IMG/VR virus record: IMGVR_UViG_3300034060_000856
Location: 1-64,000 of that record
Strand: one strand, 5' to 3'
DNA: 64,000 nt
Source of the DNA: a virus
Shown: positions 9,702 through 62,737 of the stretch, one piece after another
How positions within the stretch are numbered: the first letter of the stretch is position 1
How the letters are laid out: every line of letters starts with the position of its first letter
Program-made: the position numbers and the translations under genes
Notes under the pieces: generated by a model
The model's input: only the letters and a program-made list of their open reading frames with translations
Databases searched by the model: none
What the model was told of the DNA's origin: nothing

Positions 9702-10223
9702 ATGGAAAAGAATTTAACAGAAAAACTTTATGAAGAGCTCAGAAAAAGGAGAATCTTTGAAGAAGACGAAGATGAGAAAGACGAAGATGATGAAAATGTT
9801 GATATTGAAGATGAACAAGACGACAACGATGAGGAAGACAATGTAGAAGACGAGTCAAACGACGGTTTTTGTGAAATGGTTTGTAATATCCTACATTCAA
9901 GAAATCAAGCACATGTCTTTCATTTACAAACAAAATCTTACGCTGAACACATCGCATTAAATACTTACTATGACGGTGTTGTTGATTTGTTTGACGGTAT
10001 TGTTGAATCATATCAAGGAAAGTACGGAATTATTAGTAATTTCAAGACATTCAAAATTGAACAATACAGAAATGGTAAAAAAACCATTTCGTATTTTGAA
10101 AGATTACTTGACATAATTGAAGAAAATAGAGATTCAGTTGACGACAGTTATCTCCAAAACCAAATAGACACTGTACAGGAATTAATCAATTCAACAATCT
10201 ATAAATTAAGATTTCTTAAATGA
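9702..10223 (+). CDS. Ferritin-like phage protein with acidic tract, 173 aa
   Basis: Begins MEKNLTEKLYEEL, so an L-T-E lies at residues 5-7 as in the leader proteins. Residues about 17-52 are an almost continuous D/E tract, reminiscent of acidic core or internal head proteins. The C-terminal part (LHSRNQAHVFHLQTKSYAEH, then YYDGVVDLFDGIVESYQGKYG) resembles a Dps/ferritin-like helical family found in phages (I believe DUF5856). It overlaps the next gene by four bases. Probably a virion or nucleoid-associated protein. Confidence 0.6.
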   Translation: MEKNLTEKLYEELRKRRIFEEDEDEKDEDDENVDIEDEQDDNDEEDNVEDESNDGFCEMVCNILHSRNQAHVFHLQTKSYAEHIALNTYYDGVVDLFDGIVESYQGKYGIISNFKTFKIEQYRNGKKTISYFERLLDIIEENRDSVDDSYLQNQIDTVQELINSTIYKLRFLK

Positions 10224-10579
10224 AAATAATAATCACAGAAAATGAAAGAAAGCCAATCTCCTCACAACACGAGGAGTTTGAGTCTTATATATTAAATTTT
10301 CTGATGAGAAGGATTAATGTTGAGAAAAGAAAACTTGGTGGTGATTTTGGTGATTTTGAACCACTTACAACTATAGAATATAATTTTAATGGTTTTCCTG
10401 GTCACGGATTTAATTCTTTTCAAAACAGATCATATTGGGAAAGAAGAGTTATTGAATTACTTGAAGAAGCTGAAATTATACCACAAGATTGGGCTGGTGA
10501 TTTAAAAGTTGAAAATTCAGAAAGACAAAAAATTATTAGAACAATTAGAAAATTTATTAAAAATATTTTGATTAACTAA
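10220..10579 (+). CDS. Leader protein with RR module, 119 aa
   Basis: Starts MKIIITENERK, the class B leader with I-T-E at residues 5-7. A hydrophobic-RR motif follows (ILNFLMRRI), and the C-terminal half is helical and basic. Overlaps the upstream stop (ATGA). Inferred internal virion protein. Function unknown. Confidence 0.6.
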   Translation: MKIIITENERKPISSQHEEFESYILNFLMRRINVEKRKLGGDFGDFEPLTTIEYNFNGFPGHGFNSFQNRSYWERRVIELLEEAEIIPQDWAGDLKVENSERQKIIRTIRKFIKNILIN

Positions 10580-10597
10580 AAAAAAGTATTACATTTG
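10566..10597 (+). promoter_or_regulatory. Bacteroidota-type promoter
   Basis: TTTTG at 10566-10570 and TACATTTG at 10590-10597 with 19 bases between, close to the consensus TTTG-N19-TAnnTTTG. It drives the 10630 gene with a short untranslated leader. Confidence 0.65.
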
Positions 10598-10629
10598 TTT
10601 ATTGTTTAACTTAAAATATAAAATAAAAA

Positions 10630-10878
10630 ATGGGATTAAAATCAGGAAGTAAAGGTCGTTACATCACAAAAGTTGGTTACTTGGATGTTTACGCAAAAGA
10701 CAGTCACAAACCAAAAAAAGAATCAAAATACAATTTTGTAAAGGCGGAAGTAAAATCAACAGTTTATAACATTCTTCACGCAAAGAAATTAGTTAAAGGT
10801 AACTTTAATACTAAAGAGGAGGCGGTACAACACGCAATTGAAGCTTTGGGTGATAAAAGAGTTCATTATTCTTTATAA
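10630..10878 (+). CDS. Small basic protein, 82 aa
   Basis: A monocistronic gene with a good host-type promoter and its own terminator. Basic (many K), beta-like N-terminus (GSKGRYITKVGYLDVYAK) and a helical C-terminal segment (TKEEAVQHAIEALG). It may bind nucleic acid. An early or constitutive expression pattern is inferred from its promoter. No family recognised. Confidence 0.65.
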   Translation: MGLKSGSKGRYITKVGYLDVYAKDSHKPKKESKYNFVKAEVKSTVYNILHAKKLVKGNFNTKEEAVQHAIEALGDKRVHYSL

Positions 10879-10883
10879 AAAAC

Positions 10884-10908
10884 AAACCGGATCACAAGTC
10901 CGGTTTTT
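10884..10908. terminator. Bidirectional intrinsic terminator
   Basis: AAACCGGA / TCCGGTTT stem with a seven-base loop, T-run on the right and A-run on the left. It separates the converging 10630 (+) and 10915 (-) genes. Confidence 0.85.
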
Positions 10909-10914
10909 TTATGT

Positions 10915-11490
10915 CTAATCATCCCAATGTATTTCGGTATCTTCAAATTCTAAACCAAAATTTTTCGCTTGAATTAAAACGTAATCCTCAATTTCCCACT
11001 TCATAGTATCAGTTACGTCATCCCAAATTTCATCATATTCATCATCATATAATTCTTCCATAGATAAAACACCCTGATCAGTCATAAATTGACCATCAAG
11101 AAGAGCAAAACCAAATTCAAGTATTTCGTTTGAACCAACAATCCTTTTTCCACGGTAATCGGGATTATAAATCCTAGTAATTTTAACTCTATATTTATCA
11201 TCCGGGTGGACACGAATACCAATACTTTTTATATCTTCTTCGGTTATAATTTTACCATCAATAACGTTTTTAAATAATTTAAACGCCTCTTCTTCACCAC
11301 CAACAAAATCAAAATATACTTGTATTATCTCATCAAAATAATCAGATAATTTTTTTCTTTCCATATCTTTAATATCTAATTTTGGTGTTAAACCAGAATC
11401 AACTTGTCTCTGTAAATTTTTGACAATGTAATTTTTAAGAACTTGAATATTCTGATCTTCTTTTAATATTTTTCTTATTAAACTTTTCAT
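10915..11490 (-). CDS. Leader protein (class C), 191 aa
   Basis: ATG at 11490 gives MKSLIRKILKEDQ, the LxxxIRRILKE-type leader, with L-K-E near residues 8-10; a TTG two codons upstream is rejected. The body is acidic and similar to the upstream neighbour at 11487-12068 (shared KN-x-x-x-K-R-W/L-Q-x-Q-V, D-E-I-I-Q, and a W-E/W-D end), so the two are tandem paralogues. It overlaps the 11487 gene by four bases. Inferred internal virion protein; function unknown. Confidence 0.65.
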   Translation of the reverse strand: MKSLIRKILKEDQNIQVLKNYIVKNLQRQVDSGLTPKLDIKDMERKKLSDYFDEIIQVYFDFVGGEEEAFKLFKNVIDGKIITEEDIKSIGIRVHPDDKYRVKITRIYNPDYRGKRIVGSNEILEFGFALLDGQFMTDQGVLSMEELYDDEYDEIWDDVTDTMKWEIEDYVLIQAKNFGLEFEDTEIHWDD

Positions 11491-12068
11491 TCCCAATCTA
11501 CAGTAATATAATCAAAATGGTTTTTTATGTCAAAACCAAACGATTCAAGAATGGTACCAACAAAATTCATAACAAAATTTTTAATCTCATCTTTAAAATC
11601 CCAATATGAAACAAAATCATCAAAAGGATTTTCGTTTGATGAAAAATTATAAGTTTCCTCTTCATCACTATTATAAAAAGAACCACTCAACACTTCAAAT
11701 TCAATGTCCAGATCTATAGTATTTATAGACACATTATCATTCTCTGTAAACTCAACTTTGGTAAATTTTATTTTTATTTTTCCTTCGTCTAGATATTTCA
11801 TATCTGTAATTTCATTTTCCGTGAAAGTGTGATTTAAGAGGTATTGTTTTACGGCCTCACTTCTACTATTAATATTACCATAACCCATAAATTCAACAAA
11901 ATATTGGATTATTTCATCTTTTTTACTAGAAAGACCCAATTTATTAATGTCAAAAATTGTAGGAAGTTCTCCTTTATTTACTTGGCCTTGCCATCTTTTA
12001 AAGAAAAAGTTTTTAAGAGGATTATTTGAGTTCTCCTCAAGTAGAATATTTTTTATACGTTCTCTCAT
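11487..12068 (-). CDS. Leader protein (class C), 193 aa
   Basis: Begins MRERIKNILLEENSN, a class C leader with L-L-E at residues 9-11. Paralogue of the downstream 10915 gene. Beta-rich centre and an acidic C-terminus ending in TVDWE. A late-type GTATTTATT box lies a few bases upstream on the minus strand (about 12075-12082). Function unknown. Confidence 0.65.
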   Translation of the reverse strand: MRERIKNILLEENSNNPLKNFFFKRWQGQVNKGELPTIFDINKLGLSSKKDEIIQYFVEFMGYGNINSRSEAVKQYLLNHTFTENEITDMKYLDEGKIKIKFTKVEFTENDNVSINTIDLDIEFEVLSGSFYNSDEEETYNFSSNENPFDDFVSYWDFKDEIKNFVMNFVGTILESFGFDIKNHFDYITVDWE

Positions 12069-14317: not shown

Positions 14318-15172
14318 ATGGTTAAAAAATTCATCATTGATGAGGTAAAAACAAATTCAGAGTTATTAGGAATAACAGATTATCAAACATCAAACCAAGA
14401 AGATCTCAAATTAAAAAACTATATTACAATATCAAAGGAAGACAAACTCCCAAAAAATTTAGAAATAAATTATATTAGTAATAATTGGAAAGTTGCACAA
14501 TTTTTAAATAAGATTCTGTACGAAATCTATAAAGACAATTTAGGATACAATCAAGATAAATCAAAGTATGGAATTGTTGATATATACACATTAGGAAATA
14601 AAATAAATTGGTCAATTTTAAATTATTTTGGTGGACACAAATACATTAAACAATATCTCCTTGATTTATTTAATACAAAGAACACCCAAGAAGATAAGAC
14701 ACCAGAGAATTTTTATTTATGGGTATTAATTAATATGACAACACTTTTTAAAAAAGGAAACATATTAGAAGAGTTCATAAAAACAAATATGTATACTTAT
14801 AATAAAGGAAGAAGTACTGAAAATTTTGTTTCAGAGATACTTGAAAAAAAAGGTTATAACATTATTTATTATCCACCAGGATCAAAATTTGATAGAGATT
14901 TTGGTATTGATATGGAAATAAACGGAACGACATATCAGGTAAAACAATTATTTGAAATAAGTGATGACGACATAAATTACTATTTATTAACACCATTACC
15001 AAAAAATTATCTTGGCTTACCGGTACAAAGGATTATGTTAGTTAATACAAATAATTCAAGTTTTGTGTCATTCTCAAATGAGAATTATGAAATTGATGAA
15101 GATGGTTGTAGGTATATTATTAAAAAAGAGATTAACAAACAAATAAAAAAAGGAAATTTAAACGACTTGTGA
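14318..15172 (+). CDS. Putative PD-(D/E)XK-type nuclease, 284 aa
   Basis: The C-terminal third has a pattern typical of Mrr/restriction-like nucleases: GRSTENFVSEILEKKGY (E169 on a helix), then FGIDMEINGTTYQVKQ with D198 and Q207-V-K209. That order (E, D, QxK) is the usual metal-binding core. The N-terminal 150 residues are helical and unrecognised. It has a host-type promoter and is coupled to a zinc-ribbon gene by GTGA overlap. Substrate unknown; the call rests on motif geometry. Confidence 0.5.
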   Translation: MVKKFIIDEVKTNSELLGITDYQTSNQEDLKLKNYITISKEDKLPKNLEINYISNNWKVAQFLNKILYEIYKDNLGYNQDKSKYGIVDIYTLGNKINWSILNYFGGHKYIKQYLLDLFNTKNTQEDKTPENFYLWVLINMTTLFKKGNILEEFIKTNMYTYNKGRSTENFVSEILEKKGYNIIYYPPGSKFDRDFGIDMEINGTTYQVKQLFEISDDDINYYLLTPLPKNYLGLPVQRIMLVNTNNSSFVSFSNENYEIDEDGCRYIIKKEINKQIKKGNLNDL

Positions 15173-15363
15173 AGATTATAATAACAGAAAAACAAGCTGA
15201 AAAATTATTTGGTGAAACTATAAAATGCCAATGTGGTCACTCTTGGAAAAAAGAAACAAATGACCAGGATCCCTATTTGTGTCATATGTGTGGTTGGGAT
15301 CAGAAACAAAAAAAATATAATGACGATAAATTAATTAAATTTTGGAGGACGTATAAAAAATGA
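15169..15363 (+). CDS. Leader-bearing zinc-ribbon protein, 64 aa
   Basis: GTG start in a GTGA overlap with the upstream stop. The chosen start gives MKIIITEKQAEKLF, a full class B leader with I-T-E, which confirms it. C20, C22 or H24, then C38 and C41 form a compact ribbon (CQCGHSW, CHMCGW) resembling small zinc proteins that bind nucleic acid. Overlaps the next gene by four bases. Confidence 0.65.
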   Translation: MKIIITEKQAEKLFGETIKCQCGHSWKKETNDQDPYLCHMCGWDQKQKKYNDDKLIKFWRTYKK

Positions 15364-16634: not shown

Positions 16635-17306
16635 ATGAAAATTAAAGTAACAGAAAGTCAATTAAAAAAAATTGCAGAAAATGTAAAAACTGATAATTTA
16701 AATGAAGGATTAACCGATTTTTTAAAAGGTGCATATTCCTCAATTAAAACTCTTGTTACTAAATTTAAAGATGGAGATTTATCAAAAGTTGATTTTGAAA
16801 AAGAATTAGAAAAATTAAGAGGTAAAGAAGAAGATAGTGGTGAAAGTGGTGAGATACCAAAAGGTAAAGGTTATGGATTTAATAAAAGCAACGGTTTTAA
16901 ATCAAAAGAAAGACCAAGTCACGGAGGTGTAGATTTTCAAGGTAGGGAAGGGGATAAAATTGTGATTAAAAAAACAGGAGAAGTTGTAGGTGTAAGTACC
17001 GGATGTAGTACTGGAAATCAAAAATGTGGTGGTGGATGTGGAAATTACGTTAAAATTAAACACGAAGACGGTAATACAACAATGTATTGTCATATGACAG
17101 ATGTTTATTCAAATATAAAAACAGGAACGAAAATAAAACCAGGTAAAGTTATTGGTACTATTGGTAATACTGGTCATTCTTTTGGTGATCATTTACACTT
17201 CCAGTTTTGGAATGGTGGTAACTTATCTGATGGGTCATCACAAGCTGAAAAATATTTTGTTATTTTAGACAAGTCTTCAAAGTATGGAGAAAAAGATAAA
17301 GGATAA
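16635..17306 (+). CDS. Leader-bearing M23 peptidase, 223 aa
   Basis: Starts MKIKVTESQLKKIAENV (class B leader) and has a second site L22-N23-E24-G25, a good match to the (L/I)-x-E|G consensus. The peptidase domain spans about residues 78-205: H96-x3-D100 in SHGGVDF and HLHFQF near the end carry the zinc ligands. Such enzymes cut peptidoglycan cross-bridges. Lacking a signal peptide but carrying a leader, it is probably a virion-borne wall hydrolase used at entry. Confidence 0.8.
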   Translation: MKIKVTESQLKKIAENVKTDNLNEGLTDFLKGAYSSIKTLVTKFKDGDLSKVDFEKELEKLRGKEEDSGESGEIPKGKGYGFNKSNGFKSKERPSHGGVDFQGREGDKIVIKKTGEVVGVSTGCSTGNQKCGGGCGNYVKIKHEDGNTTMYCHMTDVYSNIKTGTKIKPGKVIGTIGNTGHSFGDHLHFQFWNGGNLSDGSSQAEKYFVILDKSSKYGEKDKG

Positions 17307-17315: not shown

Positions 17316-18083
17316 ATGAAAATAATTGTCAAAGAATCACAAATTAAAAAAATCATTAAAGAAGAAAAAAAACAACAACTAAATGAAAGTTTGAGTTTGT
17401 TGGGATGGATCTTTACTCTTAGCCTAGGTACTTGGGCAATCAGTTTAGTTTGGAATTTATTTAAAAAATATAAAAAAGGTGAAATATCAAAAAAAGTTTT
17501 TAAACGAGGTGTTTCTAAAATAAAACAAAAAGATAGTGCAGGTTATTACAATAATGAAGAAAAACGTTATTATGGTAATACTGATGAATATAGGTCTGGT
17601 GGAGTAAAAACAACAAACATTGTAATCGGTGACCCACAAGCATCAGTTATTGCTGGTAAATCAAGAAAGGCAAACCTTATTGGTCGTAAGGCCGGTGAAT
17701 CAAACTTATGGTACCCAGGTGCTGACGTTTCTTGGTTAAAAAATGCACTTAGAAAGTTTCCCATTTCACCGGAAGTAAATAATGTTATTATATGTATTGG
17801 GACAAATGGTGGGTTCAACCCAAACGATGATGTAAACGGATTATTTGGGGAATTAAAGGGTAAATTTCCCAATGCTAATTTCCACACAGTTCAAGGATCC
17901 TGGGGTAAAGGTTCAAATGTTGAGGTGGAATTATATAATGTTGAAAGATATTATAATAATTTTAAAAACTACTCCAATATTATTGGCAGTGTTGGTGATA
18001 TAGGTAATTTAAAATTACATCCACACAACCCAAAAATTCGGTCTTATGATGAGATCGCAAACGAAATAGATAGATCACTTTAA
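17316..18083 (+). CDS. Leader-bearing SGNH-hydrolase-like protein with membrane helix, 255 aa
   Basis: Leader MKIIVKESQIKKIIKEE, with L-N-E at 22-24. A hydrophobic helix spans about 28-48. The C-terminal domain has blocks like an SGNH hydrolase: NIVIGDPQAS (102-110), VIICIGTNGG, and LHPHNP near the end. The usual catalytic GDS is GDP here, so either Ser110 substitutes or the enzyme is inactive. Ten bases after the M23 gene; likely a co-packaged partner. Confidence 0.55.
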   Translation: MKIIVKESQIKKIIKEEKKQQLNESLSLLGWIFTLSLGTWAISLVWNLFKKYKKGEISKKVFKRGVSKIKQKDSAGYYNNEEKRYYGNTDEYRSGGVKTTNIVIGDPQASVIAGKSRKANLIGRKAGESNLWYPGADVSWLKNALRKFPISPEVNNVIICIGTNGGFNPNDDVNGLFGELKGKFPNANFHTVQGSWGKGSNVEVELYNVERYYNNFKNYSNIIGSVGDIGNLKLHPHNPKIRSYDEIANEIDRSL

Positions 18084-18585: not shown

Positions 18586-18972
18586 ATGAAATATCTCATA
18601 ACTGAAAATAAAATAAATTCTTTTACACAAAGAATAATAAATGATACATTAACTGAATTTAGAAATGTTTGTGAAGTTCCAGATGCCGATACTTGGCCAG
18701 ATTGGTTAAGTTTTGATGATTGTAATAGTTTAGAATCAATTGAAAAAATTGAAGTCGTAAATACACAAATTTTAAAATTGACAAAAGGATTAGGAAAACA
18801 ATACCCAACATTTGGGGTTGACATAAACATACATTTTTCAAGTATCTTTGCAAGTCAAGATTTTAGTGACTTTCTTATTGCATTAGCTTATAGGATAAGA
18901 CAAAAATATAAAGTCACCCTAATGTTCAATGAAAATGAATCAATTAACACCAACACTAATAAAGAGTGGTAA
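18586..18972 (+). CDS. Leader protein (class B), 128 aa
   Basis: Begins MKYLITENKINSFTQRIIND with I-T-E at residues 5-7. ATATTTAT lies about 24 bases upstream. The body has a W-P-D-W-L segment and a central D-I-N-I-H-F strand. Inferred internal virion protein; otherwise unrecognised. Confidence 0.6.
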   Translation: MKYLITENKINSFTQRIINDTLTEFRNVCEVPDADTWPDWLSFDDCNSLESIEKIEVVNTQILKLTKGLGKQYPTFGVDINIHFSSIFASQDFSDFLIALAYRIRQKYKVTLMFNENESINTNTNKEW

Positions 18973-19290: not shown

Positions 19291-19689
19291 ATGAAAGATA
19301 TAATTAGAAAAATATTAAGAGAAGAGGCTGAAAATGAGGAACGGCACAAATCAAACTTAAAAGTAAAACGTGCAATTGAGAGAGTGTTAGATTTGGTTAT
19401 TACTAATTATGATTACAACAAAGATGAAACAGAACTATTTTTTTTCGATAAAAATAAAAAATGTTTATTAACCTACAAAATTAAAGAAAAAAAAATATGG
19501 TATGATCACTACTTACTTAATGAAATAATATCACAAATGGTAAGAGTTCGGTTTTATATTAAGGACTTATTTAAAGAAGCACTTAAAATTTGGTTTGAGA
19601 AAAATTTTAAATCAAAAGGATTTGAAGTTGGTGATAAATATTGGTCTAATGGACCAAACATAGAAGGGGCAAATATTGCCTTATATTAA
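19291..19689 (+). CDS. Leader protein (class C), 132 aa
   Basis: ATG 19291 gives MKDIIRKILREEAENEE, a class C leader ending L-R-E-E-A; a TTG further upstream is rejected because the leader begins here. Basic helical body, YDYNKDETELFFFDKNKK in the middle. One base separates it from the 19691 gene, with which it forms a pair. Function unknown. Confidence 0.65.
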   Translation: MKDIIRKILREEAENEERHKSNLKVKRAIERVLDLVITNYDYNKDETELFFFDKNKKCLLTYKIKEKKIWYDHYLLNEIISQMVRVRFYIKDLFKEALKIWFEKNFKSKGFEVGDKYWSNGPNIEGANIALY

Positions 19690-20467: not shown

Positions 20468-20971
20468 ATGAATATTAGACAATCCATAAAAAAAATTCTA
20501 AAAGAAGAATTTAACCGTGAATCTAAAATATTCTCGGCCGTTGAAAAATATGGTATTATAAAAACTTGTGGAATGGTTGGTGGCATCAATCAACTCGCCA
20601 GTATATTAAATGAAACACCGGAAGGACTACTTACAAAGTACTTGAGTAAAGAAACATTCTCAACCAACGACATAGAAAAAAACACTGGTGGTTATAACTT
20701 TAAATTTAAATTACAATTTGTAGAAAAATATAACGATTATTATAATTTTTTCTTTGTGATAGAAGAAGGAACTGTTGAATTAATTATGACCGATGATGAC
20801 ACTGAATATAATTTATTTGGTAACTATATTAGAGAACTAGAAAGTTGGTGGGAAATAAAATATGAAATAAAAGACATATTATATGATTTTGTTAAAGAAC
20901 TTAACAATAAAATAAAATTTGATGATATCACAGTTAATGATGTTGATTACACCTTCAAAGACAAAAGATAA
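20468..20971 (+). CDS. Leader protein (class C), 167 aa
   Basis: MNIRQSIKKILKEEFNRES is a class C leader with L-K-E at residues 11-13. The body has G-I-I-K-T-C-G-M-V-G-G and an acidic C-terminal half. Ten bases after the 19691 gene. Distantly resembles the 10915/11487 pair in layout. Function unknown. Confidence 0.65.
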   Translation: MNIRQSIKKILKEEFNRESKIFSAVEKYGIIKTCGMVGGINQLASILNETPEGLLTKYLSKETFSTNDIEKNTGGYNFKFKLQFVEKYNDYYNFFFVIEEGTVELIMTDDDTEYNLFGNYIRELESWWEIKYEIKDILYDFVKELNNKIKFDDITVNDVDYTFKDKR

Positions 20972-21318: not shown

Positions 21319-21645
21319 ATGCAAATTGTCCTTACAGAATCACAATATAATACACTAATAAGAAGATTAGATGACTTTGTTGTAATTGACAGACAGTTTA
21401 AATACCAGTTAAGACAAAAAATACCTTGTAATTTTACTGATTTTGAAGATTATTTTAATTTTGTTTCATATAGAACAGAAGATTATGTTACTAATAAATT
21501 AATAGAAAATAAAATAATTGAGTTTGATTTAGAATTATCAAATAAGATTAGAAGTGAGATTGAAAACTATATTAAGGATAATTTTTTAGAATACGCAAAA
21601 GAGTATTACGATTATTATAAAGAAAAAAACTGTCCGGAAGAATGA
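21319..21645 (+). CDS. Leader protein (class B) with RR module, 108 aa
   Basis: MQIVLTESQYNTLIRRLDDF: an L-T-E leader immediately followed by the RR motif. C-terminal helix is FLEYAKEYYDYYKEK, the Y-rich end of the module. Overlaps the next gene by four bases (ATGA). Inferred internal virion protein. Confidence 0.65.
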   Translation: MQIVLTESQYNTLIRRLDDFVVIDRQFKYQLRQKIPCNFTDFEDYFNFVSYRTEDYVTNKLIENKIIEFDLELSNKIRSEIENYIKDNFLEYAKEYYDYYKEKNCPEE

Positions 21646-22004
21646 ACCTACAAGAGAACATAAGAAGAATATTAAAGGAAGAGGTAAATGTTCCTCCATA
21701 TATTAAAAGAAGATTGTATGTTGTTGATGAATACATTAGTGATTTAGATCCTGAAGATGTTTGTAGATATTGGGATGATAATCACGCTAAAGAATATGTA
21801 AACCAACATATGTCAGACATTGTTAGAAGTATTGTAGATTTTAGAATCCAAGTAAATGATGATGAATATACTGAAAAGTATGATGAAATATACGGTTCAT
21901 TAATTGATTTAGGGTACAGAGAAAAATTAGAAGATTTCTTCTACGAATCATTACAAAACTGTAACCCAAAACATAGGATGAGGTTTATGAAATCACAGCA
22001 TTGA
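21642..22004 (+). CDS. Leader protein (class C) with RR module, 120 aa
   Basis: MNLQENIRRILKEEVNVPPYIKRRLYVVDEY: class C leader ending L-K-E-E, then a P-P-x-I-x-R-R motif. First of six near-identical leader cassettes in 21.6-25.4 kb. The C-terminal helix includes YREKLEDFFYESL. Function unknown. Confidence 0.65.
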   Translation: MNLQENIRRILKEEVNVPPYIKRRLYVVDEYISDLDPEDVCRYWDDNHAKEYVNQHMSDIVRSIVDFRIQVNDDEYTEKYDEIYGSLIDLGYREKLEDFFYESLQNCNPKHRMRFMKSQH

Positions 22005-23966: not shown

Positions 23967-24281
23967 ATGAACCTACAAGAATCCATAAGAAAAGTATTAA
24001 GGGAAGAACTAAAATCAAAATTCTTTCTTAGGAGAATTAAATTAAATGATGTTAAAAGAATACTTCCACTTAATGCAGAACAGGTGTATTATGAAACGGA
24101 AAGTTATGGACAGTTCAAATATGAATTAACTTTAAGAGCTGTAGAAACAATTATGTACAATGAGTATGATATGGGGTGGGAAGATCTACCACAACAAGAA
24201 GAAATAGATTTTGTAACAGATGTTTCAGATATGTTTGATGACAAAATTAAATCATTATACAACCACTACAAAGAAAGATAA
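23967..24281 (+). CDS. Leader protein (class C) with RR module, 104 aa
   Basis: MNLQESIRKVLREELKSKFFLRRIKL: class C leader ending L-R-E-E, then an FFLRR motif. C-terminal FDDKIKSLYNHYKER. The nucleotide sequence of the leader is almost identical to those at 24281, 24624, 24924 and 25357 whereas the bodies differ. TAATG overlap with the next gene. Confidence 0.65.
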   Translation: MNLQESIRKVLREELKSKFFLRRIKLNDVKRILPLNAEQVYYETESYGQFKYELTLRAVETIMYNEYDMGWEDLPQQEEIDFVTDVSDMFDDKIKSLYNHYKER

Positions 24282-24622
24282 TGAACCTACAAGAATCCAT
24301 AAGAAGAATATTAAGGGAGGATACTATTAATATTGCAACAATCCTACGCAGAGTTAATTCTGATGATTTAGAAAGAGAGTTTGAGGAGTCATTAGACATG
24401 GCATCAACGTGGTTTTTAAATTTGACTTTCAATGGATTGGCTGTGAATTTAAACAGATTTATAGATGTGGCAATTTCAAATACAATTGACGGAATCCACC
24501 ATGACTTATACAGTACATTACCGGAAGATGTCCAATGGTATGAAGATGTTAAAGAAACTTTAAAAGAATATTATAGAGATAGAATCAAGGTTACATATAA
24601 AAGATTAATGTCAGAACTATAA
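24281..24622 (+). CDS. Leader protein (class C) with RR module, 113 aa
   Basis: MNLQESIRRILREDTINIATILRRVNSDD: leader with L-R-E followed by TILRRV. C-terminal helix YYRDRIKVTYKRLMSEL. One base separates it from the next gene. Function unknown; inferred internal virion protein. Confidence 0.65.
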   Translation: MNLQESIRRILREDTINIATILRRVNSDDLEREFEESLDMASTWFLNLTFNGLAVNLNRFIDVAISNTIDGIHHDLYSTLPEDVQWYEDVKETLKEYYRDRIKVTYKRLMSEL

Positions 24623-24623
24623 T

Positions 24624-25355
24624 ATGAACCTACAAGAAAACATAAGAAGAATATTAAGGGAAGAATTTAAATTACCTAATTTGATTAGAAGAAGATTTAA
24701 TGAAGAAGAACTTGATAAATTAGTCTCCAATGTAGAGAGAACATTTGAGACACACAGAATTTCCCAACAACACAGAGAAGATGTAATAGATGCCGAAGTA
24801 GATGACTTTATTATGAATAGTGTTTATTATGGTGAATTTGAGGACTTTGACGATGAAATATACCAAGATATATATAATCTGTACAGAGAACCATTGGTTA
24901 ATTATATAAAATCAAAATTAGATATGAACCTACAAGAATCCATAAAAAAAGTATTAAGGGAAGAACTAAATAATAGGGGTGACTGTAATATTATGTATGT
25001 TCCAGAACAATTTAGTAAATTAGATAGGTTTTCAAATCTGTGGGATATGGTGGTTAATGAAATTGATGAATTGATAGAAGTTTCTCAATTAGAAAAAGAA
25101 TTATTACCAAAAGACATTACAGTATATTCAGTTCAAGAAAAGTTTGATATAGAATACGTAAAAAGAATGGACGATGAAAGATACAATAAATCTGATATTA
25201 GTTTGTTCAAATATAAAAATAAATTATACATAATAGATGGGCATCATAGATTATGTTATGATAGATTAAATAATAGAGATTCCTATGTTTATATCTTTGA
25301 TAAAGATGACAGTCAAATTGTTGATTGTATATTTTACGGTATAGGAGATTGTTAA
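24624..25355 (+). CDS. Double-leader fusion: RR-module protein joined to a ParB-like protein, 243 aa
   Basis: Residues 1-100 are a complete leader plus RR-module protein (IRRILREEFKLPNLIRRRF). At residue 101 a second complete leader, MNLQESIKKVLREEL, begins in frame, followed by a ParB/sulfiredoxin-like domain with IIDGHHRLCYDRL (about 204-216). Elsewhere in this cluster such junctions contain a stop plus an ATG. Here no stop lies in frame, although a TAG in the +1 frame (24919-24921) suggests a small indel fused two genes. Cleavage at L-x-E would separate the halves. Confidence 0.6.
   Translation: MNLQENIRRILREEFKLPNLIRRRFNEEELDKLVSNVERTFETHRISQQHREDVIDAEVDDFIMNSVYYGEFEDFDDEIYQDIYNLYREPLVNYIKSKLDMNLQESIKKVLREELNNRGDCNIMYVPEQFSKLDRFSNLWDMVVNEIDELIEVSQLEKELLPKDITVYSVQEKFDIEYVKRMDDERYNKSDISLFKYKNKLYIIDGHHRLCYDRLNNRDSYVYIFDKDDSQIVDCIFYGIGDC
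24924..25355 (+). CDS. Possible independent ParB-like leader protein (internal start), 143 aa
   Basis: In-frame ATG at 24924 with the same leader as the neighbouring genes, so it can be made separately from the fusion above. Residues 104-110 read IDGHHRL, the phosphate/nucleotide-binding signature of ParB/Srx-fold proteins, preceded by a Y-x-N-K-L-Y-I strand. Some family members are CTPases or nucleases. Packaged delivery is inferred from the leader. Confidence 0.5.
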   Translation: MNLQESIKKVLREELNNRGDCNIMYVPEQFSKLDRFSNLWDMVVNEIDELIEVSQLEKELLPKDITVYSVQEKFDIEYVKRMDDERYNKSDISLFKYKNKLYIIDGHHRLCYDRLNNRDSYVYIFDKDDSQIVDCIFYGIGDC

Positions 25356-25356: not shown

Positions 25357-25956
25357 ATGAACCTACAAGAATCCATAAGAAGAATATTAAGGGAAGAACT
25401 AGACTCTGATGATATTAAATCCAGACAAGACGAGGCTGCCGAGTTAATAAAACAATACGGTCACTATTCCTCACCTGACTTACGATATATCACTCGACCA
25501 CTATACGCATACATTGAGAACCAAAACTTTGGGAGATTAAAGGAATTGGGGGTTAAATATAGATTTACACCAATCGGTGAGATTAATTTAAATGGTGCAT
25601 TATCCAGGTTTATAAAAGAAAGGGGTGTCTTTAATGGTATTGGTGGTAATATAATAAGGTTATACAATGATGAACCGGTAACAAAGAGTGATATTTCAAG
25701 AATAAAAAGAAAGATCCAGGATATTATAAATGAGTTCAATACAAAGTTAAGAACAAACTATCAGATTGATGGTGTTGTTGGTGATAAGAGTTCCGACACA
25801 TTAAGAAATCAATTAAATCAAAAATTAACAGATGGTGAGTACAATATAGAACCAACATATAATAATATTGGTATAAAAATTTCAAGAGGGTTTGAGGATG
25901 AATATCTGGCAACCATACCAATGGATGAAATTGATAAACCACAGATGTTAGATTAA
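25357..25956 (+). CDS. Leader protein (class C), 199 aa
   Basis: MNLQESIRRILREELDSDD leader. The body differs from the RR family: helical segment, then R-F-T-P-I-G-E-I-N-L-N-G-A, a Gly-rich loop and a long basic helix (SRIKRKIQDIINEF). Last gene before a strong terminator and the long gene-poor segment. Function unknown. Confidence 0.65.
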   Translation: MNLQESIRRILREELDSDDIKSRQDEAAELIKQYGHYSSPDLRYITRPLYAYIENQNFGRLKELGVKYRFTPIGEINLNGALSRFIKERGVFNGIGGNIIRLYNDEPVTKSDISRIKRKIQDIINEFNTKLRTNYQIDGVVGDKSSDTLRNQLNQKLTDGEYNIEPTYNNIGIKISRGFEDEYLATIPMDEIDKPQMLD

Positions 25957-28124: not shown

Positions 28125-28532
28125 ATGAAAAGAATTGTAAGACTTACTGAATCTGATTTAACTAGAGTAATTAAAAAAATTATCTCTGAATCAGAGAAAG
28201 CCCCATCAATACAAAAGGTCTATAATAAAATATATAAAGTTTTAGAAAATATGGGGTTGTCTAAATTTAATGATGACTTTGATATATATTATATCCAAGA
28301 TGATATTCGGACGGAATATCCTGGTCCTGCAAGAAACTACGGTAAGTATGTAGGAAAATACCTATTTAAGGTGGCCTTTTATTTAGAAGATGGTGAAGAT
28401 GATATTAATATAAAAATGATTTCAAAAAAAGTTATCGATGAATTAAATAATGAGTTTGGTAATGAGTTCTTTGAATTGGGAAATTTATATAAAGAACATT
28501 TTTTAATAAAGTTCAATAAGTTGGCACTATAA
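28125..28532 (+). CDS. Leader protein (class A), 135 aa
   Basis: ATG 28125 gives MKRIVRLTESDLTRVIKKII followed by SES: the class A leader with L-T-E (7-9) and I-S-E. An upstream in-frame ATG would add a segment that overlaps the promoter, so it is rejected. Body is alpha/beta with an acidic D-G-E-D-D-I segment. Inferred internal virion protein. Confidence 0.7.
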   Translation: MKRIVRLTESDLTRVIKKIISESEKAPSIQKVYNKIYKVLENMGLSKFNDDFDIYYIQDDIRTEYPGPARNYGKYVGKYLFKVAFYLEDGEDDINIKMISKKVIDELNNEFGNEFFELGNLYKEHFLIKFNKLAL

Positions 28533-46680: not shown

Positions 46681-47271
46681 ATGGTAATTTTAGAAAATCT
46701 AATAAAGAAAGTTTTGAAAGAAGAGTTTTCAAAACCTATGGAATTGAAAAAACGTATAAAAATTTCAGAAAATTTAAAATACCATTTAGATAATCAAATA
46801 ACTTTATCTGAAAATATTTTTAGAATTTATTCACAGTCTTATTTTGATTTAATTAACGAAGTAAGAGATTTATATGAGGATAATTTAATTAATTTAAATC
46901 AGGAAGATAAATGGGTCGTTGAAAGTGATTTAGGGAAATCTGTTTTAAGTGAGGAACAGTTTAATTACGAAGACTTTTATGGTTCTGTAGAAAATGTAGA
47001 TCTATTGAATGAGGCCGAGTATCAAGGAAGAAATGTACAACTTGGAAAAATTATGCAAGGGGACATTAAGAAGTTTAAAGTTTATGTTAAAAACGACAAA
47101 GGAAAAGTTGTTAAAGTAAATTTTGGTTTTGGTGGTAAATCAGCAAAAGGTAAAAGAATGGTTATTAAAAAGAACAATCCAGAAAGAAGACGTTCTTTTA
47201 GAGCTAGACATAATTGTGATAATCCAGGCCCAAGATGGAAACCAAGATATTGGGCTTGTAAAACTTGGTAA
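46681..47271 (+). CDS. Leader protein with LNEA site and basic Cys-W domain, 196 aa
   Basis: Class C-like leader MVILENLIKKVLKEEFSKP. Around residue 109 there is L-L-N-E|A-E-Y-Q-G-R, then a domain with KKFKVYVKNDKGKVVKV, R-x-x-SFRARHNC (Cys179) and RYWACKTW (Cys193). The C-terminal domain resembles one I recall from phage virion proteins of uncertain role. The L-N-E|A right before it suggests the domain is released by the head protease. An ATATCTATT box is upstream. Confidence 0.65.
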   Translation: MVILENLIKKVLKEEFSKPMELKKRIKISENLKYHLDNQITLSENIFRIYSQSYFDLINEVRDLYEDNLINLNQEDKWVVESDLGKSVLSEEQFNYEDFYGSVENVDLLNEAEYQGRNVQLGKIMQGDIKKFKVYVKNDKGKVVKVNFGFGGKSAKGKRMVIKKNNPERRRSFRARHNCDNPGPRWKPRYWACKTW

Positions 47272-50107: not shown

Positions 50108-50511
50108 AAAATGTACCAGAAAATTATTTGAGTAAAATTAAAACGATGAAAAACGTTATACTAACCACTTCTGGTCTATTATCTGAATATGGTAACTCCA
50201 TTAGTTTAGAACTTGGTGATATTGATTACAACCAAAACGTCAATGACGTTTACGAAATTGTGTTAGAATTAAAATTAACAGATGTTTATTGTCCAGATTG
50301 TGATCACGAGCCCAATATGGTAAGTAATACGATAAATGAAATTATTAAAAAAATATATAAAGGGTGTAATTTTGGTTTGACAGGTGATTTACAATTTAAA
50401 AATTCATTTATGTCAACAAGAGGTGTCTTATTGTACGAAACTAAATTGTGGAGGGATAATTTTGAATATATAGTTTTTGGTATTTTTATTGATCCAGGAC
50501 AAAAATATTAA
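50104..50511 (+). CDS. Unknown protein, 135 aa
   Basis: Starts in ATGA overlap with the peptidase gene. Beta-rich, with a C-P-D-C-D-H pair (about 80-86) that could bind metal and a later N-x-F-G-L-T-G-D strand. Overlaps the 3' end of the minus-strand gene by four bases. Might be the partner of the peptidase; function unknown. Confidence 0.6.
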   Translation: MKNVPENYLSKIKTMKNVILTTSGLLSEYGNSISLELGDIDYNQNVNDVYEIVLELKLTDVYCPDCDHEPNMVSNTINEIIKKIYKGCNFGLTGDLQFKNSFMSTRGVLLYETKLWRDNFEYIVFGIFIDPGQKY

Positions 50512-51125
50512 TTTCCAAACTTTTTTACAATTCCTTGTAATAGGTTTTTTATCATAGACCCACTTAACGTTACACCAACAAAACCAATTACTCTTTTTAT
50601 CATTTCTTCAATTTCCATAGAAGAATGACCTTGCGAATATTCATATAATTCAGGTATTATTGGTATTATAAAAGTATAGGCCATCATATTTGATATTTTT
50701 GAAACCGGTATTGCTAGACTACCAATAAAAGAAATAAAATAATCTTTTAACTCTGATGCTTTATTTAACATATGGTCAAATTCTTGAATTAAAGATTTTT
50801 CTTTTACCTTATCTAAAACTTTTTTCAGACCTTCTTTATTGGTTGTAAAATACGTTAAAATAACCCCTGTTGAAAGTAATGCTAATTCCGTATTTGTTAA
50901 TTCTGGATAATTACCTTTTATAAATTCAGCTATTGGTCTAACAAATCCGGCGATTGTAACACCCCACGTTGCTAAAAATTCAAGATCTAAACCAATCTGT
51001 TTTTTTGACTCTGAAGAGACGGTTTTAAAAAACTTTTTTAGTGATTGTAATTTATCAACAACATTATTTGTTCTTTCTTCAAATATTATTTTTTTGTATT
51101 GTGATTCTGTCAAAATAAACTTCAT
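50508..51125 (-). CDS. Leader protein (class B) with membrane segments, 205 aa
   Basis: MKFILTESQYKKIIFEERTN, with L-T-E and I-F-E. Several hydrophobic stretches (FLATWGVTIAGFV, LALLSTGVILTYF, FISFIGSLAIPVS, MMAYTFIIPIIPEL, VIGFVGVTLSGSM) suggest a multi-pass or membrane-inserting protein. As an internal protein it may form an ejection pore. Its promoter (51131-51138, minus) diverges from the 51159 unit. Confidence 0.6.
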   Translation of the reverse strand: MKFILTESQYKKIIFEERTNNVVDKLQSLKKFFKTVSSESKKQIGLDLEFLATWGVTIAGFVRPIAEFIKGNYPELTNTELALLSTGVILTYFTTNKEGLKKVLDKVKEKSLIQEFDHMLNKASELKDYFISFIGSLAIPVSKISNMMAYTFIIPIIPELYEYSQGHSSMEIEEMIKRVIGFVGVTLSGSMIKNLLQGIVKKFGN

Positions 51126-51488: not shown

Positions 51489-52094
51489 ATGAACTCTTAC
51501 TTTTTTAAAATGACAAAAGAAGAAAAACAAAACATTTTAGACTCACATAAAAGTGTCTATGATGGTTTTGCAACACAGTATGGTCAAAATACAAATCAAC
51601 AACCTTTATACGTTCAAGACTTTGCAAACGACAAAAATGGTATTACTGTTAACAACAAAGGAGAAGTAAAAACATATACAAATATGAATATCAATGAACG
51701 TTTTGATAGTAGAGATAAAATTGCTGACGGACCACACGATTTACAAAATGGTACTGTTGATTTTAGAGGTACACCAGATATGTCAGAGGTGAATAGTGAA
51801 TATTTTCACGATTTAAAGTCATCACCAAACGAAGATGAGGTAGAATTTATTTCATTAGGTATTGATGAACCAGAAAGTGAAGAAAGTGAAGAAGAACCAT
51901 TTGACGATTATAACGATTTAAGTATGTATAACCCATATTATGGTAGTGACGATTATGATATAGATGAACCAACTGACAATACTGAAGATGATTATGATGT
52001 ATTTTCAGAATTAGGTGTGGAAGAAAAACCAGAAGTGATTGAGAAAATAAACGAGTCTTTAGATATGTTTAAAAGATTCAAAAGATATAATTAA
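51489..52094 (+). CDS. Leader-like acidic protein, 201 aa
   Basis: An ATG at codon 8 gives MTKEEKQNILDSHKSVYDGF, similar to the EEKxxILxxH leader of the 35407 product; the upstream ATG adds MNSYFFK. The remainder is strongly acidic (E/D/S-rich about 115-180), like an internal core protein. Three bases after the SH3-like gene. Function unknown. Confidence 0.6.
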   Translation: MNSYFFKMTKEEKQNILDSHKSVYDGFATQYGQNTNQQPLYVQDFANDKNGITVNNKGEVKTYTNMNINERFDSRDKIADGPHDLQNGTVDFRGTPDMSEVNSEYFHDLKSSPNEDEVEFISLGIDEPESEESEEEPFDDYNDLSMYNPYYGSDDYDIDEPTDNTEDDYDVFSELGVEEKPEVIEKINESLDMFKRFKRYN

Positions 52095-56190: not shown

Positions 56191-58218
56191 ATGAAAAATT
56201 CAAAACTACTCCTTGAGGAGGTTTTTAGAATGCGCGAACTTATGGGGTTTCCCTCAACTGATAAAGTCTTAAATTTATTAAAAGAAAGTGTTGGTGAAGG
56301 AATAAATGATTTTTGGAAATTTTTAGGGAAGGAATTAGCTTCTACTACTGACGAAGCAACAAAACTTACCAACATACAGAAGGCCTACGATGGTTTAGAT
56401 GCTTTAGACAAAAATACGATTGACGAGTTCATAAGAATTAAAAGAGGAGTTAGTGGTAGCTTTACAATCACCGATTTGATGAGTCTTTATAAAACTAAAG
56501 GATTACAACAATTAGTTAATGATATGGCAAATGATCAAGCACGATTACAACAATTACTTATAAAAAACCGTTTTAGCTTTAATATCCGTCCTGGTGAAAA
56601 TATTATTACTTCAACAACAAGACTTTTAAACGATCCAAATATCTCAGATGAGGTAAAAGGAATTTATCAAAAAACACAACAAATGGCAAAAAATCCTAGT
56701 GAAGTAGTTGGTGAATCAGAATTGGAGGCCTATTTAACCCAAATGGTTAAATTTAAAAATTCCCCAGAGTTCAAAAAGTTGAGTTCAGATGTACAAGACG
56801 ATATAAATAAAACGTATGACGAATTGAATGCCATACAAGTTAAGGCTGAAAAAGAAAGAATTGCTTTTGAAGCGTCGATTGAACCTGGTAGGTATGATGA
56901 CGATGTGTTAGCTGATGTTGACACAAATCTTGGTGATGATTTTGAAGCAGAACAAATCATAACAAGAGCTGAAGATGAAGCCGGTGATGCCGCAAGAGGT
57001 GCTGATGAGACTGGTGGTCGAACATATAGTATGCCAGAAGTAGAAGAAGAACGAATTGTAGAACTATCCATAGATGAAATAAGGACTCAAAAATACACCG
57101 GTATGGATGATATGTTATTAAAACAAGAATATGCAGTATTGATTGCAGGTATTAAAGGTAATAAAGTTAAATTCCCATTTGATAAAAACGTCCTAGCTCT
57201 ATTCAAAGAAATGGAACAAAGAGGTTTATTAAAAAATGATGATCTTGTTGGTAATATTTTAGCTAGTAACATCACAATGAACCCTAATGTTATTGCAATG
57301 CAAAAATTATTATCTGAATATGAAATATATAAAAAGAAAATGTTGAAAGACAATGTTAAAATTGTTGGTCCTGATGGTATCCTTAAAGATAGTGCACCAT
57401 TAGATTTTGTTGATTGGGCAATTAAAAATAAAAGAACAATACCAACTAATGTAAATTCACAAACTTTACTAAATAAAACTTCGGAGTATTTAGATTTTGT
57501 TTTTCTATGGCCACTTAGAAGACTCATTGGTAAAAGTACAGAGCAAGGAAGTTTCTCTAGAGCTTTACTTAATTTATTATTAGGATATGGGGGTGGAGCA
57601 TCTCTTGGTTGGGGTTTTTACGCCTCTTTAAAAAGTTATGGTCAAGCTGGAATTAGTTTTTTGGATTCAACACCTATCGCACAAAAACAAGCAATAAAAA
57701 CTGGTTTAAAAACTTACTTTACTTATGATAATCCTCAATTAATTATTAATGGTGAAACAGAGTCTATCTATGGTACAAGTATTGACCAAAGTAGACAAGC
57801 AAACATACAATTTAAAAATGCCACACCAACACCAATTTTTGATTTAGATATTAAACAAAGACAGTTTTCATTGGATCCTGGCATAGTAATAAAGGGTAAA
57901 ACATATAATGCATTTCTTATTAATTTTGGTGAAGGTAATTTTATTACACAAGGTTCAGAAAATTTTGGTAATAAAAATATATTAGTTGCAATAACCCAAT
58001 CAACTAAAACACCTACAACCACAACTCAAAAAGGAACAGAAGCAATTTTTAAAACCTCAAATTTCGCACAAGGTAAAACAATAACAGCATTTGTTTATAA
58101 AGGAATTGTAAATAACAAAGAACAATACGAAGTGAAATTCTATTCAAATACAGATCCTGATAAAAATGTAGTATCAAGAACATATTACTTTGATGGTACT
58201 AATTGGACAAAAAATTAA
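56191..58218 (+). CDS. Large leader-like virion protein, 675 aa
   Basis: MKNSKLLLEEVFRMRELMGF, with L-L-E-E at 7-10 and a second L-L-K-E-S near residue 30. Acidic, helical N-terminal 300 residues. A hydrophobic segment (about 460-480, LLNLLLGYGGGASLGWGFYA) is likely membrane inserted. Beta-rich C-terminus. Related in layout to the 53890 product. Inferred internal virion protein. Confidence 0.65.
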   Translation: MKNSKLLLEEVFRMRELMGFPSTDKVLNLLKESVGEGINDFWKFLGKELASTTDEATKLTNIQKAYDGLDALDKNTIDEFIRIKRGVSGSFTITDLMSLYKTKGLQQLVNDMANDQARLQQLLIKNRFSFNIRPGENIITSTTRLLNDPNISDEVKGIYQKTQQMAKNPSEVVGESELEAYLTQMVKFKNSPEFKKLSSDVQDDINKTYDELNAIQVKAEKERIAFEASIEPGRYDDDVLADVDTNLGDDFEAEQIITRAEDEAGDAARGADETGGRTYSMPEVEEERIVELSIDEIRTQKYTGMDDMLLKQEYAVLIAGIKGNKVKFPFDKNVLALFKEMEQRGLLKNDDLVGNILASNITMNPNVIAMQKLLSEYEIYKKKMLKDNVKIVGPDGILKDSAPLDFVDWAIKNKRTIPTNVNSQTLLNKTSEYLDFVFLWPLRRLIGKSTEQGSFSRALLNLLLGYGGGASLGWGFYASLKSYGQAGISFLDSTPIAQKQAIKTGLKTYFTYDNPQLIINGETESIYGTSIDQSRQANIQFKNATPTPIFDLDIKQRQFSLDPGIVIKGKTYNAFLINFGEGNFITQGSENFGNKNILVAITQSTKTPTTTTQKGTEAIFKTSNFAQGKTITAFVYKGIVNNKEQYEVKFYSNTDPDKNVVSRTYYFDGTNWTKN

Positions 58219-60985: not shown

Positions 60986-61953
60986 ATAAAATTTTTGACA
61001 TAACGGTTGTAATCCCAACGTATAATAACATTGAATATCTTGAAGAAATGCTAGAGTCTATAAATAACTCTAAACAAAATTATACAGTTGAGGTTCTAGT
61101 TGGTATTGACGGTTGTAAAAAAACTTTGGACTTTGTTAAAACCAATTTTTTTGACGAGAATGTAAGGTTTCTTTTTTTTGAACAAAATGGTGGCCCGTAT
61201 ACAATAAAAAATACCCTAGTACAAAAAGCAAGTGCGGAAAAAATAATTTTTTTTGATTCTGATGATTTAATGTCAGAAAATTTAATACCAAAAATAATAA
61301 AGACATTGGATTTGTTTAAGATTTGTAAATTTCGTTATAAAAACTTTATTTATAATAAAACTGATAATTATAAACAATCGGTTTCATATGGTGAAGGTGT
61401 TTTTGGTATAACAAAAAGTTTATTTTTAGAAATGAATGGGTTTGAGCCTTGGATTTGTGCTGCAGATAGTGATTTTTGGGGTAGGGTATATAAATCAAAT
61501 GTAAAAGCTAGATTTATAAATGAAATATTAATGCTTCGCAGAATACATAATAATCAATTAACAAAAAGAAATGATACTGGAATGCGATCAACTTTGCGAG
61601 CTTATTATTGGAAATTAAGTAAGTCAAAAAGAGGAAATGGTAACCCATCTTTTTTGAGTGTTCGAAAATACTTTGAAATCCACGATGTTAATTCAGAAAG
61701 ATTAAAATTTGAACAAATTAGTATTTTAAGAAAAAAGGAAGTTCTAATTGAGAGTGTAAAATCGGTATTAATGTCTAACAATTTAATTGTTCCACCATCG
61801 AAACCAAAAAAACAACCTCCAGTCGAGTTAAACTACGATCTTGTAAATAAGTTAATGATAAAAAAATTAAATCAAACTCAAGAACAAGAAAAAAAACCAA
61901 GTTTAATCCCAGATAGACAAAATCTTTTTGATTTAAAAAGAAAAAAGGTTTGA
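60982..61953 (+). CDS. Family 2 glycosyltransferase, 323 aa
   Basis: ITVVIPTYNNIEYLEEMLES start, VLVGIDG, EQNGGPYTIKN and IIFFDSDDLMSE (the metal-binding D-S-D-D) are standard. A later W-x-C-A-A-D-S-D-F-W-G-R segment is the substrate-side ED-like motif. The C-terminal 90 residues are basic with a P-K-K-Q-P-P linker. Transfers a sugar from a nucleotide donor; target unknown. Confidence 0.85.
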   Translation: MNKIFDITVVIPTYNNIEYLEEMLESINNSKQNYTVEVLVGIDGCKKTLDFVKTNFFDENVRFLFFEQNGGPYTIKNTLVQKASAEKIIFFDSDDLMSENLIPKIIKTLDLFKICKFRYKNFIYNKTDNYKQSVSYGEGVFGITKSLFLEMNGFEPWICAADSDFWGRVYKSNVKARFINEILMLRRIHNNQLTKRNDTGMRSTLRAYYWKLSKSKRGNGNPSFLSVRKYFEIHDVNSERLKFEQISILRKKEVLIESVKSVLMSNNLIVPPSKPKKQPPVELNYDLVNKLMIKKLNQTQEQEKKPSLIPDRQNLFDLKRKKV

Positions 61954-61993
61954 TATATTATATAATATTTTTTATCTTTATAAAAAAGAAAAT

Positions 61994-62173
61994 ATGTACG
62001 TAATAGTTAAACACATCAAATTAGAGGAAAGTAAAAAAAGAGTTCCTGTTATCTTACTTAATACTCAAAGTGAAATTTGGGAATTTGACACAGAAAAAGA
62101 GGCTGAAAAAATGAGAGAAGTTTTTGAATTAAATTCAGATTCGGGACATATTTACGAAATTAAAAGGATTTAA
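61994..62173 (+). CDS. Small protein, 59 aa
   Basis: ATG 61994, stop 62171-62173. MYVIVKHIKLEESKKRVPVI, then N-T-Q-S-E-I-W-E-F and an acidic helix. A TTTGA (about 61949) and TATCTTTA pair upstream is a host-like promoter. Unrecognised. Confidence 0.55.
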   Translation: MYVIVKHIKLEESKKRVPVILLNTQSEIWEFDTEKEAEKMREVFELNSDSGHIYEIKRI

Positions 62174-62188
62174 TAAAAATGTTATACT

Positions 62189-62293
62189 ATGGAAGAAATA
62201 CTTGAAGAAATCCATTTTGAGTTTGTTGATTCGGACGATTTCATACATTTTATAAAATTATTGGTAGAATTACAACAAACTGAAGATAACTGA
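62189..62293 (+). CDS. Tiny acidic peptide, 34 aa
   Basis: ATG 62189, stop 62291-62293, right before a late-type box. Very acidic with hydrophobic positions in helix spacing. Position and spacing support it weakly. Confidence 0.4.
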   Translation: MEEILEEIHFEFVDSDDFIHFIKLLVELQQTEDN

Positions 62294-62300
62294 TATTTAT
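62293..62300 (+). promoter_or_regulatory. Late-type box, 5-base gap to ATG
   Basis: ATATTTAT five bases before the ATG at 62306. Confidence 0.6.
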
Positions 62301-62305
62301 TTTAT

Positions 62306-62737
62306 ATGAAAGTAAGATTAACTGAATCAGAATTAGTTTCTTTGATAGAAAAAATCATCAAAGAAGAAAGAACAACTATGGATGATATTAAATACATACA
62401 TCCAGAGACAGGGAAAGAATGTCTTATAAAAGTTGCAAAACACAAATATACAAATAGGTTTGGTGCTGAATATGGATCTATTTTGGTTTGTGATGAATAT
62501 GGTGATGGTGAATATATGACCGTTGCCGAATTACCAATTAATGGTTCTAGTTTTGAAGAGGTGAGTGATATGATATGTAATAATCTTGAACGAGTATTTG
62601 AGATTTTAAACAAAATGTTAGCTGGCGAAAGTGAAGAAATAACAGAAGATTATAGTAAATACAGTAAATGGGATGTTATAGACCAGCCTATTGTTTGTTC
62701 AGGTAGACCAAAAAGGAAAAGAAGTTGGGAAGCTTAG
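62306..62737 (+). CDS. Leader protein (class A), 143 aa
   Basis: MKVRLTESELVSLIEKIIKE, with L-T-E and I-K-E-E. Alpha/beta body: YIHPETGKECLIKV, then G-S-I-L-V-C-D-E-Y-G, and an acidic helical end. Overlaps the 3' end of the RgpF-like gene by four bases. Inferred internal virion protein; function unknown. Confidence 0.65.
   Translation: MKVRLTESELVSLIEKIIKEERTTMDDIKYIHPETGKECLIKVAKHKYTNRFGAEYGSILVCDEYGDGEYMTVAELPINGSSFEEVSDMICNNLERVFEILNKMLAGESEEITEDYSKYSKWDVIDQPIVCSGRPKRKRSWEA

Follow-up and report, generated by a model that had tools for sequence, protein, structure and literature searches.

Why should some 40 otherwise unrelated proteins of one phage begin in nearly the same way? The question is raised by a window of 64,000 nucleotides (positions 1 to 64,000 of the IMG/VR virus record IMGVR_UViG_3300034060_000856), part of a 98,693-base uncultured T4-like phage contig (G000), in which gene after gene starts with one of a few short N-terminal leaders. 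In phage T4, internal proteins reach the scaffold core by means of propeptides known as capsid-targeting sequences (CTS), which gp21 then cleaves off after L/I-x-E; these proteins are diverse, with the CTS alone conserved (PMC9026906; PMC3012670). With Asp in place of the Glu, T4 IPIII is still targeted but no longer processed (PMC9026906). The leaders of the window are probably (at a probability of roughly three in four) CTS-like capsid-targeting propeptides, cut by a gp21-type S77 protease that would free the cargo in the head, in a set expanded about tenfold.

Open reading frames (ORFs) were called across the whole contig, and the N-terminal 24-mers of genes of at least 75 amino acids (aa) were compared by summed BLOSUM62 score, with pairs that have similar bodies (paralogues) left out. 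Among the non-paralogous pairs, 85 score at least 40 and 41 at least 50, compared with no pair scoring 40 or more in any of the controls (residues 28–51, residues 52–75, the C-terminus and shuffled N-termini); the sharing of N-termini by unrelated genes, far in excess of chance, is confirmed. The [IL]xE tripeptide occurs within the first 20 residues in 64 of the 134 genes, vs 29–39 of 134 in the next three 20-residue stretches. Unsupervised clustering yields one connected component of about 38–40 genes, and the complete set consists of 42 leader genes in the contig, 39 of them in the window, where they cover 35% of the bases. Four members were not in the earlier list: 35813 lies in the window, and 67406, 85213 and 96633 lie elsewhere in the contig. 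The bodies behind the leaders are mutually unrelated by blastp, and simple paralogy is rejected on these grounds as the cause of the shared N-termini. In T4, employed as the method control, the same comparison recovers the proven ipII/ipIII leader pair, together with the alt duplication, homing-endonuclease paralogues and chance pairs. The earlier note, made from the sequence alone, had claimed about 40 leader proteins with unrelated bodies, and both claims hold; an ORF with the described start was found wherever it had placed a recurring one (minus-strand genes being given by the low coordinate).

The anatomy of class A was derived from an alignment of 59 leaders from seven of the nine scanned contigs, anchored at the first LTE and left unconstrained past the three residues behind it. 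The module comprises 22 residues, K-K-[IV]-[IV]-[RK]-L-T-E-S-D-L-x-R-[IL]-[VI]-K-R-[VI]-[IVL]-x-E. The terminal Glu (residue ~22) is present in 53 of the 59 copies (background 0.075) and is preceded by hydrophobic-hydrophobic-x, with I, L, V or M two positions upstream in 97%. Class A ends at this Glu, with conservation collapsing right behind it, from 3.0 bits at the Glu itself to 1.0, 0.6 and then about 0.3; the module holds two [L/I]xE tripeptides, and the leader-terminal one is the second. Class B conforms to K-[IY]-[IL]-I-T-E-S-Q-x-x-x-[LI]-[IL], with a fixed I-T-E at residues 5–7, and class C to N-[LI]-Q-E-x-I-[RK]-[RK]-[IV]-L-[RK]-E, ending at residue 11–14, where the terminal E formed part of the search pattern. 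For class A, the position of the leader-terminal site thus corrects the earlier note, which had placed the (I/L)-x-E near residues 5–16.

Shared starts of this kind could, in principle, be DNA or RNA elements (translation initiation, promoter or recombination tag), with the amino-acid likeness a by-product. Class C fits this idea, having DNA identity in excess of that expected from genome codon usage (0.70 identical codons observed vs 0.54 expected), although the excess also fits the tandem cluster of class C genes. In classes A and B, however, identical codons are near the genome expectation (0.58 vs 0.51 and a random 0.551 vs 0.552, respectively), and therefore selection acts on the protein; furthermore, sequence-diverse leaders retain just the hydrophobic pattern and the Glu. 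This codon test largely refutes the nucleic acid explanation, which is highly improbable.

The search of the rest of the genome for a gp21-type (S77/U9) prohead protease, which the earlier note had called for, yielded an S77 gene at 95899–96624 of the contig (E=5e-24), located between a gp20-like portal gene upstream and 96633, the next gene, which has a class A leader. The contig stops before the capsid gene, but in contigs whose protease is 95% identical an acidic scaffold and gp23 come next; the protease and capsid genes have leader genes as neighbours. In this clade, the major capsid protein (MCP) contains QAS[F/H]LINE↓A or S (the arrow denotes the predicted cut) at residue ~60 in 58 of 58 sequences, the LINE↓A corresponding in position to FLTE65↓A of T4 gp23, and the scaffold contains LVKESL[NKS]E↓Q, A or E in 34 of 34. 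The 85213 family has x-E↓AP[VI]DY in 19 of 19 sequences even though the leaders differ ([IV] precedes x-E in nearly all, M in one), and the gene adjoining the MCP, which bears class C-like leaders, e.g. MNINQILRKILNE↓ATS, has x-E↓[AV] in 14 of 15, the remaining one being without that stretch. As judged from the sequences, the site at the end of the accessory leaders takes the form, [I/L/V]-x-E↓(A/Q), that is fixed in the MCP, the scaffold and two other head-region proteins of the clade.

The following leader genes are found in the window (coordinates, strand, leader class, protein length, predicted or possible cuts).

28125–28532, plus strand: class A, 135 aa, predicted cut after Glu22 (IISE↓S); internal ATG of an ORF starting at 28083
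31022–31378, plus strand: class A, 118 aa, predicted cut after Glu22 (VMNE↓D)
31415–31669, plus strand: class A, 84 aa, predicted cut after Glu22 (AIKE↓Y)
34638–35036, plus strand: class A, 132 aa, predicted cut after Glu22 (IILE↓E)
38786–39250, plus strand: class A, 154 aa, predicted cut after Glu22 (VISE↓A)
39877–40428, plus strand: class A, 183 aa, predicted cut after Glu22 (IIKE↓V)
40722–41027, plus strand: class A, 101 aa, predicted cut after Glu21 (ILKE↓D)
46065–46604, minus strand: class A, 179 aa, widely conserved family with invariant Glu21
62306–62737, plus strand: class A, 143 aa, predicted cut after Glu20 (IIKE↓E)
10220–10579, plus strand: class B, 119 aa; G001 orthologue without clear leader
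15169–15363, plus strand: class B, 64 aa, GTG start, zinc-ribbon-like CxC...CxxC body; G001 orthologue keeps the leader
16635–17306, plus strand: class B, 223 aa, M23 peptidase domain (E=5e-21); further possible sites IAE15↓N, LNE24↓G
17316–18083, plus strand: class B, 255 aa, hydrophobic segment behind the leader (by eye); possible sites IKE16, LNE24↓S
18586–18972, plus strand: class B, 128 aa
21319–21645, plus strand: class B, 108 aa
31819–32394, plus strand: class B, 191 aa
32431–32955, plus strand: class B, 174 aa
32969–33709, plus strand: class B, 246 aa
37116–37637, plus strand: class B, 173 aa
37649–38707, plus strand: class B, 352 aa, phage lysozyme (E=7e-7) and LysM (E=9e-13); possible site ITE15↓A
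40431–40688, plus strand: class B, 85 aa
41520–42023, plus strand: class B, 167 aa, DUF6576 (E=7e-10); possible site LLE16↓N
50508–51125, minus strand: class B, 205 aa; leader kept in G001 and G003 orthologues
35813–36355, plus strand: class B-like, 180 aa, MAKYIISKKQTLLLE↓A
10915–11490, minus strand: class C, 191 aa, predicted cut LKE11↓D
11487–12068, minus strand: class C, 193 aa, predicted cut LLE11↓E
19291–19689, plus strand: class C, 132 aa, predicted cut LRE11↓E
20468–20971, plus strand: class C, 167 aa, predicted cut LKE13↓E
21642–22004, plus strand: class C, 120 aa; best G003 match has a class B leader (body 35% over 78 aa)
23967–24281, plus strand: class C, 104 aa, predicted cut LRE13↓E
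24281–24622, plus strand: class C, 113 aa, predicted cut LRE13↓D
24624–25355, plus strand: class C, 243 aa, predicted cut LRE13↓E
25357–25956, plus strand: class C, 199 aa, predicted cut LRE13↓E
46681–47271, plus strand: class C, 196 aa; second predicted cut LNE111↓A right before the basic C-terminal domain
35407–35742, plus strand: class D, 111 aa, weaker case
36374–37114, plus strand: class B/D, 246 aa, M23 peptidase (E=3e-20)
51489–52094, plus strand: class D start, 201 aa, doubtful; no [ILVMF]xE in the first 40 residues
53890–56109, plus strand: class D start, 739 aa, doubtful; possible LNE21↓Q
56191–58218, plus strand: class D start, 675 aa, doubtful

Searches of the bodies against Pfam, PHROG and PADLOC gave few assignments (the two M23 peptidases, the lysozyme-LysM protein and DUF6576), most of the others belonging to no known family. 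The cell wall hydrolases among them, with functions that are usual in tails or lysis, and some large class D proteins that match no Pfam or PHROG family could be taken to suggest that the leaders are a virion-docking tag (for the tail, neck, baseplate or a membrane-bound assembly site), with cleavage optional, rather than the mark of capsid-interior cargo. This seems unlikely given that the site is identical to that of the capsid and scaffold proteins, that head-region genes bear leaders, and that the T4 protease works inside the prohead (PMC9026906).

Leaders are exchanged between conserved bodies. In the RYMFFSNLEQ family, class C-type leaders are present in G001 and G004 and class A leaders in G003 and G006; the bodies of 46681 (class C) and G003:73691 (class A) are 86% identical over 106 aa, and at least 595 relatives of 46681 have the same C-terminal domain behind class A, B, C or other starts, among them L507 (class A), L520 (class B) and L499 (class C), of which L507 and L520 share the very next domain. 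The YLDxQDF family of G038 and G019 includes close paralogues (body identity up to 75–81%) with and without the first five residues of the class B leader. Such swapping between orthologues is consistent with the leader bringing the protein into the prohead core. The YLDxQDF proteins (~105 aa, VIFxYLDxQDF) form an expanded family in G038 (102034–184568) and G019 (1186–285715), some with and some without class B leaders. A supposed ‘IRR’ family of ~105 aa, likewise with and without leaders, received no support from a hidden Markov model.

Two of the families preserve the site itself. The 46065 family has one invariant position within residues 1–39, Glu21 (39 of 39 aligned sequences), and the AlphaFold2 model consists of a helix at 8–21, a disordered stretch at 22–37 (predicted local distance difference test score <50) and a folded body thereafter; a fold search with 46065 gave no match. 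In the 46681 family, [LIVM]-x-E followed by A (63) or S (2) directly precedes the conserved basic domain in 65 of 65 distinct sequences, and a Kyanoviridae member begins with MKKFKQYIDE, CTS-like by eye. In Pelagibacter phage Kolga and Roseobacter phage CRP-902, the same domain stands alone as an ORF of its own, with the start Met at the Glu position; both phages are taken here, from annotation, size, names and general knowledge, to lie outside the T4 group. This domain of 85 residues (very basic, +20; phrog_7595; 46681–47271, L569:898–1137, L572:760–1017) is common to T4-like, Pelagibacter and Roseobacter phages, and a prohead-protease-like site precedes it in the T4-like ones.

Under the capsid-targeting reading, the leader, predicted to be a short strand plus an amphipathic helix (classes A and B) or a helix only (class C), would dock the protein onto the acidic scaffold core of a T4-type prohead, the S77 protease would cut after the Glu of the leader-terminal hydrophobic-x-E, and the mature protein, set free within the head, would enter the host along with the DNA. 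By analogy with T4, the bodies may be anti-defence and take-over proteins, plus cell-wall hydrolases. Several observations weigh against this reading. Class A mostly has Q, N, S or E right behind the predicted cut, unlike the MCP with its A; class B has no conserved terminal site, a second site (residues 15–16) being present in a minority only; class D is weak and heterogeneous, with 51489 devoid of the site; the bodies are not basic (median net charge of −4.5 per 100 aa in G000, others −1.7), so that the higher positive charge expected from the T4 internal proteins was not found; leaders also occur on a few isolated bacterial chromosomal genes; and S77 is frequent in random AT-rich viral contigs (5 of 18; 2 of 3 at ≥100 kb), so that the co-occurrence of leaders with S77 amounts to consistency, not proof.

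The lack of a fixed terminal site in class B and the isolated chromosomal genes would also suit leaders that are uncleaved N-terminal domains (acting as a degron, in the binding of host proteins or in localisation to a replication compartment), but the invariant Glu followed by the disordered linker in the 46065 family, the same motif in the MCP and scaffold, and the interchange of leader classes on conserved bodies make this quite improbable. Overall, the T4-type capsid-targeting proposal of the earlier note is strongly supported by the S77 gene, the site in head proteins, the leader swaps and the gene adjacency, whereas its details of the site failed for classes A, B and D; its view that the set ranks among the largest of its kind and is delivered into the host is plausible. 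For classes A and C, action like that of the T4 CTS has good support; it is likely for class B and doubtful for class D.

A degenerate class A pattern matches at least 120 stretches in IMG/VR, compared with 6 in about 85,000 bacterial and archaeal genomes, and a looser one is found in one of the 395 genomes of Bacteroidia. S77 is present in 25 of 32 viral contigs that bear leaders and span 100 kb or more; gp23 and gp20 matches are likewise absent from the remaining 7, consistent with their being fragments. By regular expression, six contigs have 23–33 class A, B and C leaders each. A tblastn search of GenBank phages with the 22-residue leader gave no match, the query being probably too short. 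Flavobacterium and Rhodothermus phages, but also a Microcystis phage, are among the nearest named relatives by portal; judging from these relatives only, the host is likely to belong to Bacteroidota. In rumen Bacteroidales chromosomes, isolated low-GC genes carry class A-like leaders (MKKxIRLTESDL...; L261:4619–5005, L263 near 6499, L265:6395–6958), one of them between the two halves of a TPR-regulator gene; these look like recent single-gene acquisitions.

Among the known systems, the closest parallel is provided by the CTS of T4 IPI, IPII, IPIII and Alt, likewise a short N-terminal propeptide (about 7–20 residues) on unrelated proteins, ending in hydrophobic-x-E for an S77 protease (a predicted site here, in classes A and C), and the gp20-gp21-gp22-gp23 gene order is the same. 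In T4, however, about 4 proteins are so equipped vs about 40 here; the three or four leader architectures include no clear likeness of A or B to MKTYQEFIAE; class A is slightly longer, at 22 residues; and the T4 internal proteins are described as basic, whereas the bodies here are on average slightly acidic. The starts of T4 gp24 (MAKINELLRE) and gp22 (MLKEQLIAE) look like class C, but these proteins, like gp23, are shell or core components rather than the cargo proposed here. In the phiKZ-like giant phages (SPN3US, phiKZ, 201phi2-1), many inner-head proteins lose N-terminal propeptides to a gp21-related protease, and 19 of the 89 virion proteins of 201phi2-1 are processed (PMC9026906). There, the motif is S/A-x-E and the propeptides are mostly much longer, as opposed to hydrophobic-x-E and 7–22 residues here, with no shared short leader families of such size (PMC5694885). 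The cultured relative Flavobacterium phage vB_FspM_immuto has T4-type head genes and a leader of its own, MENFDLKKFLVENKLTxNSxLLxE (FDLKKFLVENKL-type), different in sequence and with only four recognised members, and the random S77-bearing control contig G446 has its own 14-member family, MKKSELRQIIKEEIxKxLNE (MKKSELRQIIKEEI.K.LNE). Given these separate families, the principle seems to be general in T4-like phages, and the expansion seems to be marked in the lineage of the window. A literature search found no mention of the leader motifs and, in cyanophage work, none of CTS beyond one T4 review; within the literature searched, neither the expansion nor the interchangeability of the architectures is described.

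A broader proposal, to which slightly less than even odds can be given, is that large T4-like phages of a widespread lineage, with Bacteroidota as likely hosts, load most of some 30–40 tagged proteins into every head and inject them, which would be the largest payload of this kind on record, with cargo recruited via interchangeable leaders and tagged genes leaking into host chromosomes. If so, dozens of uncharacterised genes per phage genome would become one functional class, packaged and probably injected effectors, and the T4-type head would recruit new cargo by the swap of a 7–22-residue leader. The lineage is common in viral metagenomes, and the predicted mature N-termini can be checked by mass spectrometry.

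The 268,739-base contig G031 has two S77 matches (E 2e-30 and 2e-24), possibly reflecting two phages or a paralogue. In the contig of the window, four tail-fibre-like genes upstream of the terminase gene (86741–90395) share a different N-terminus, MPLNVDxINxGxLxING.

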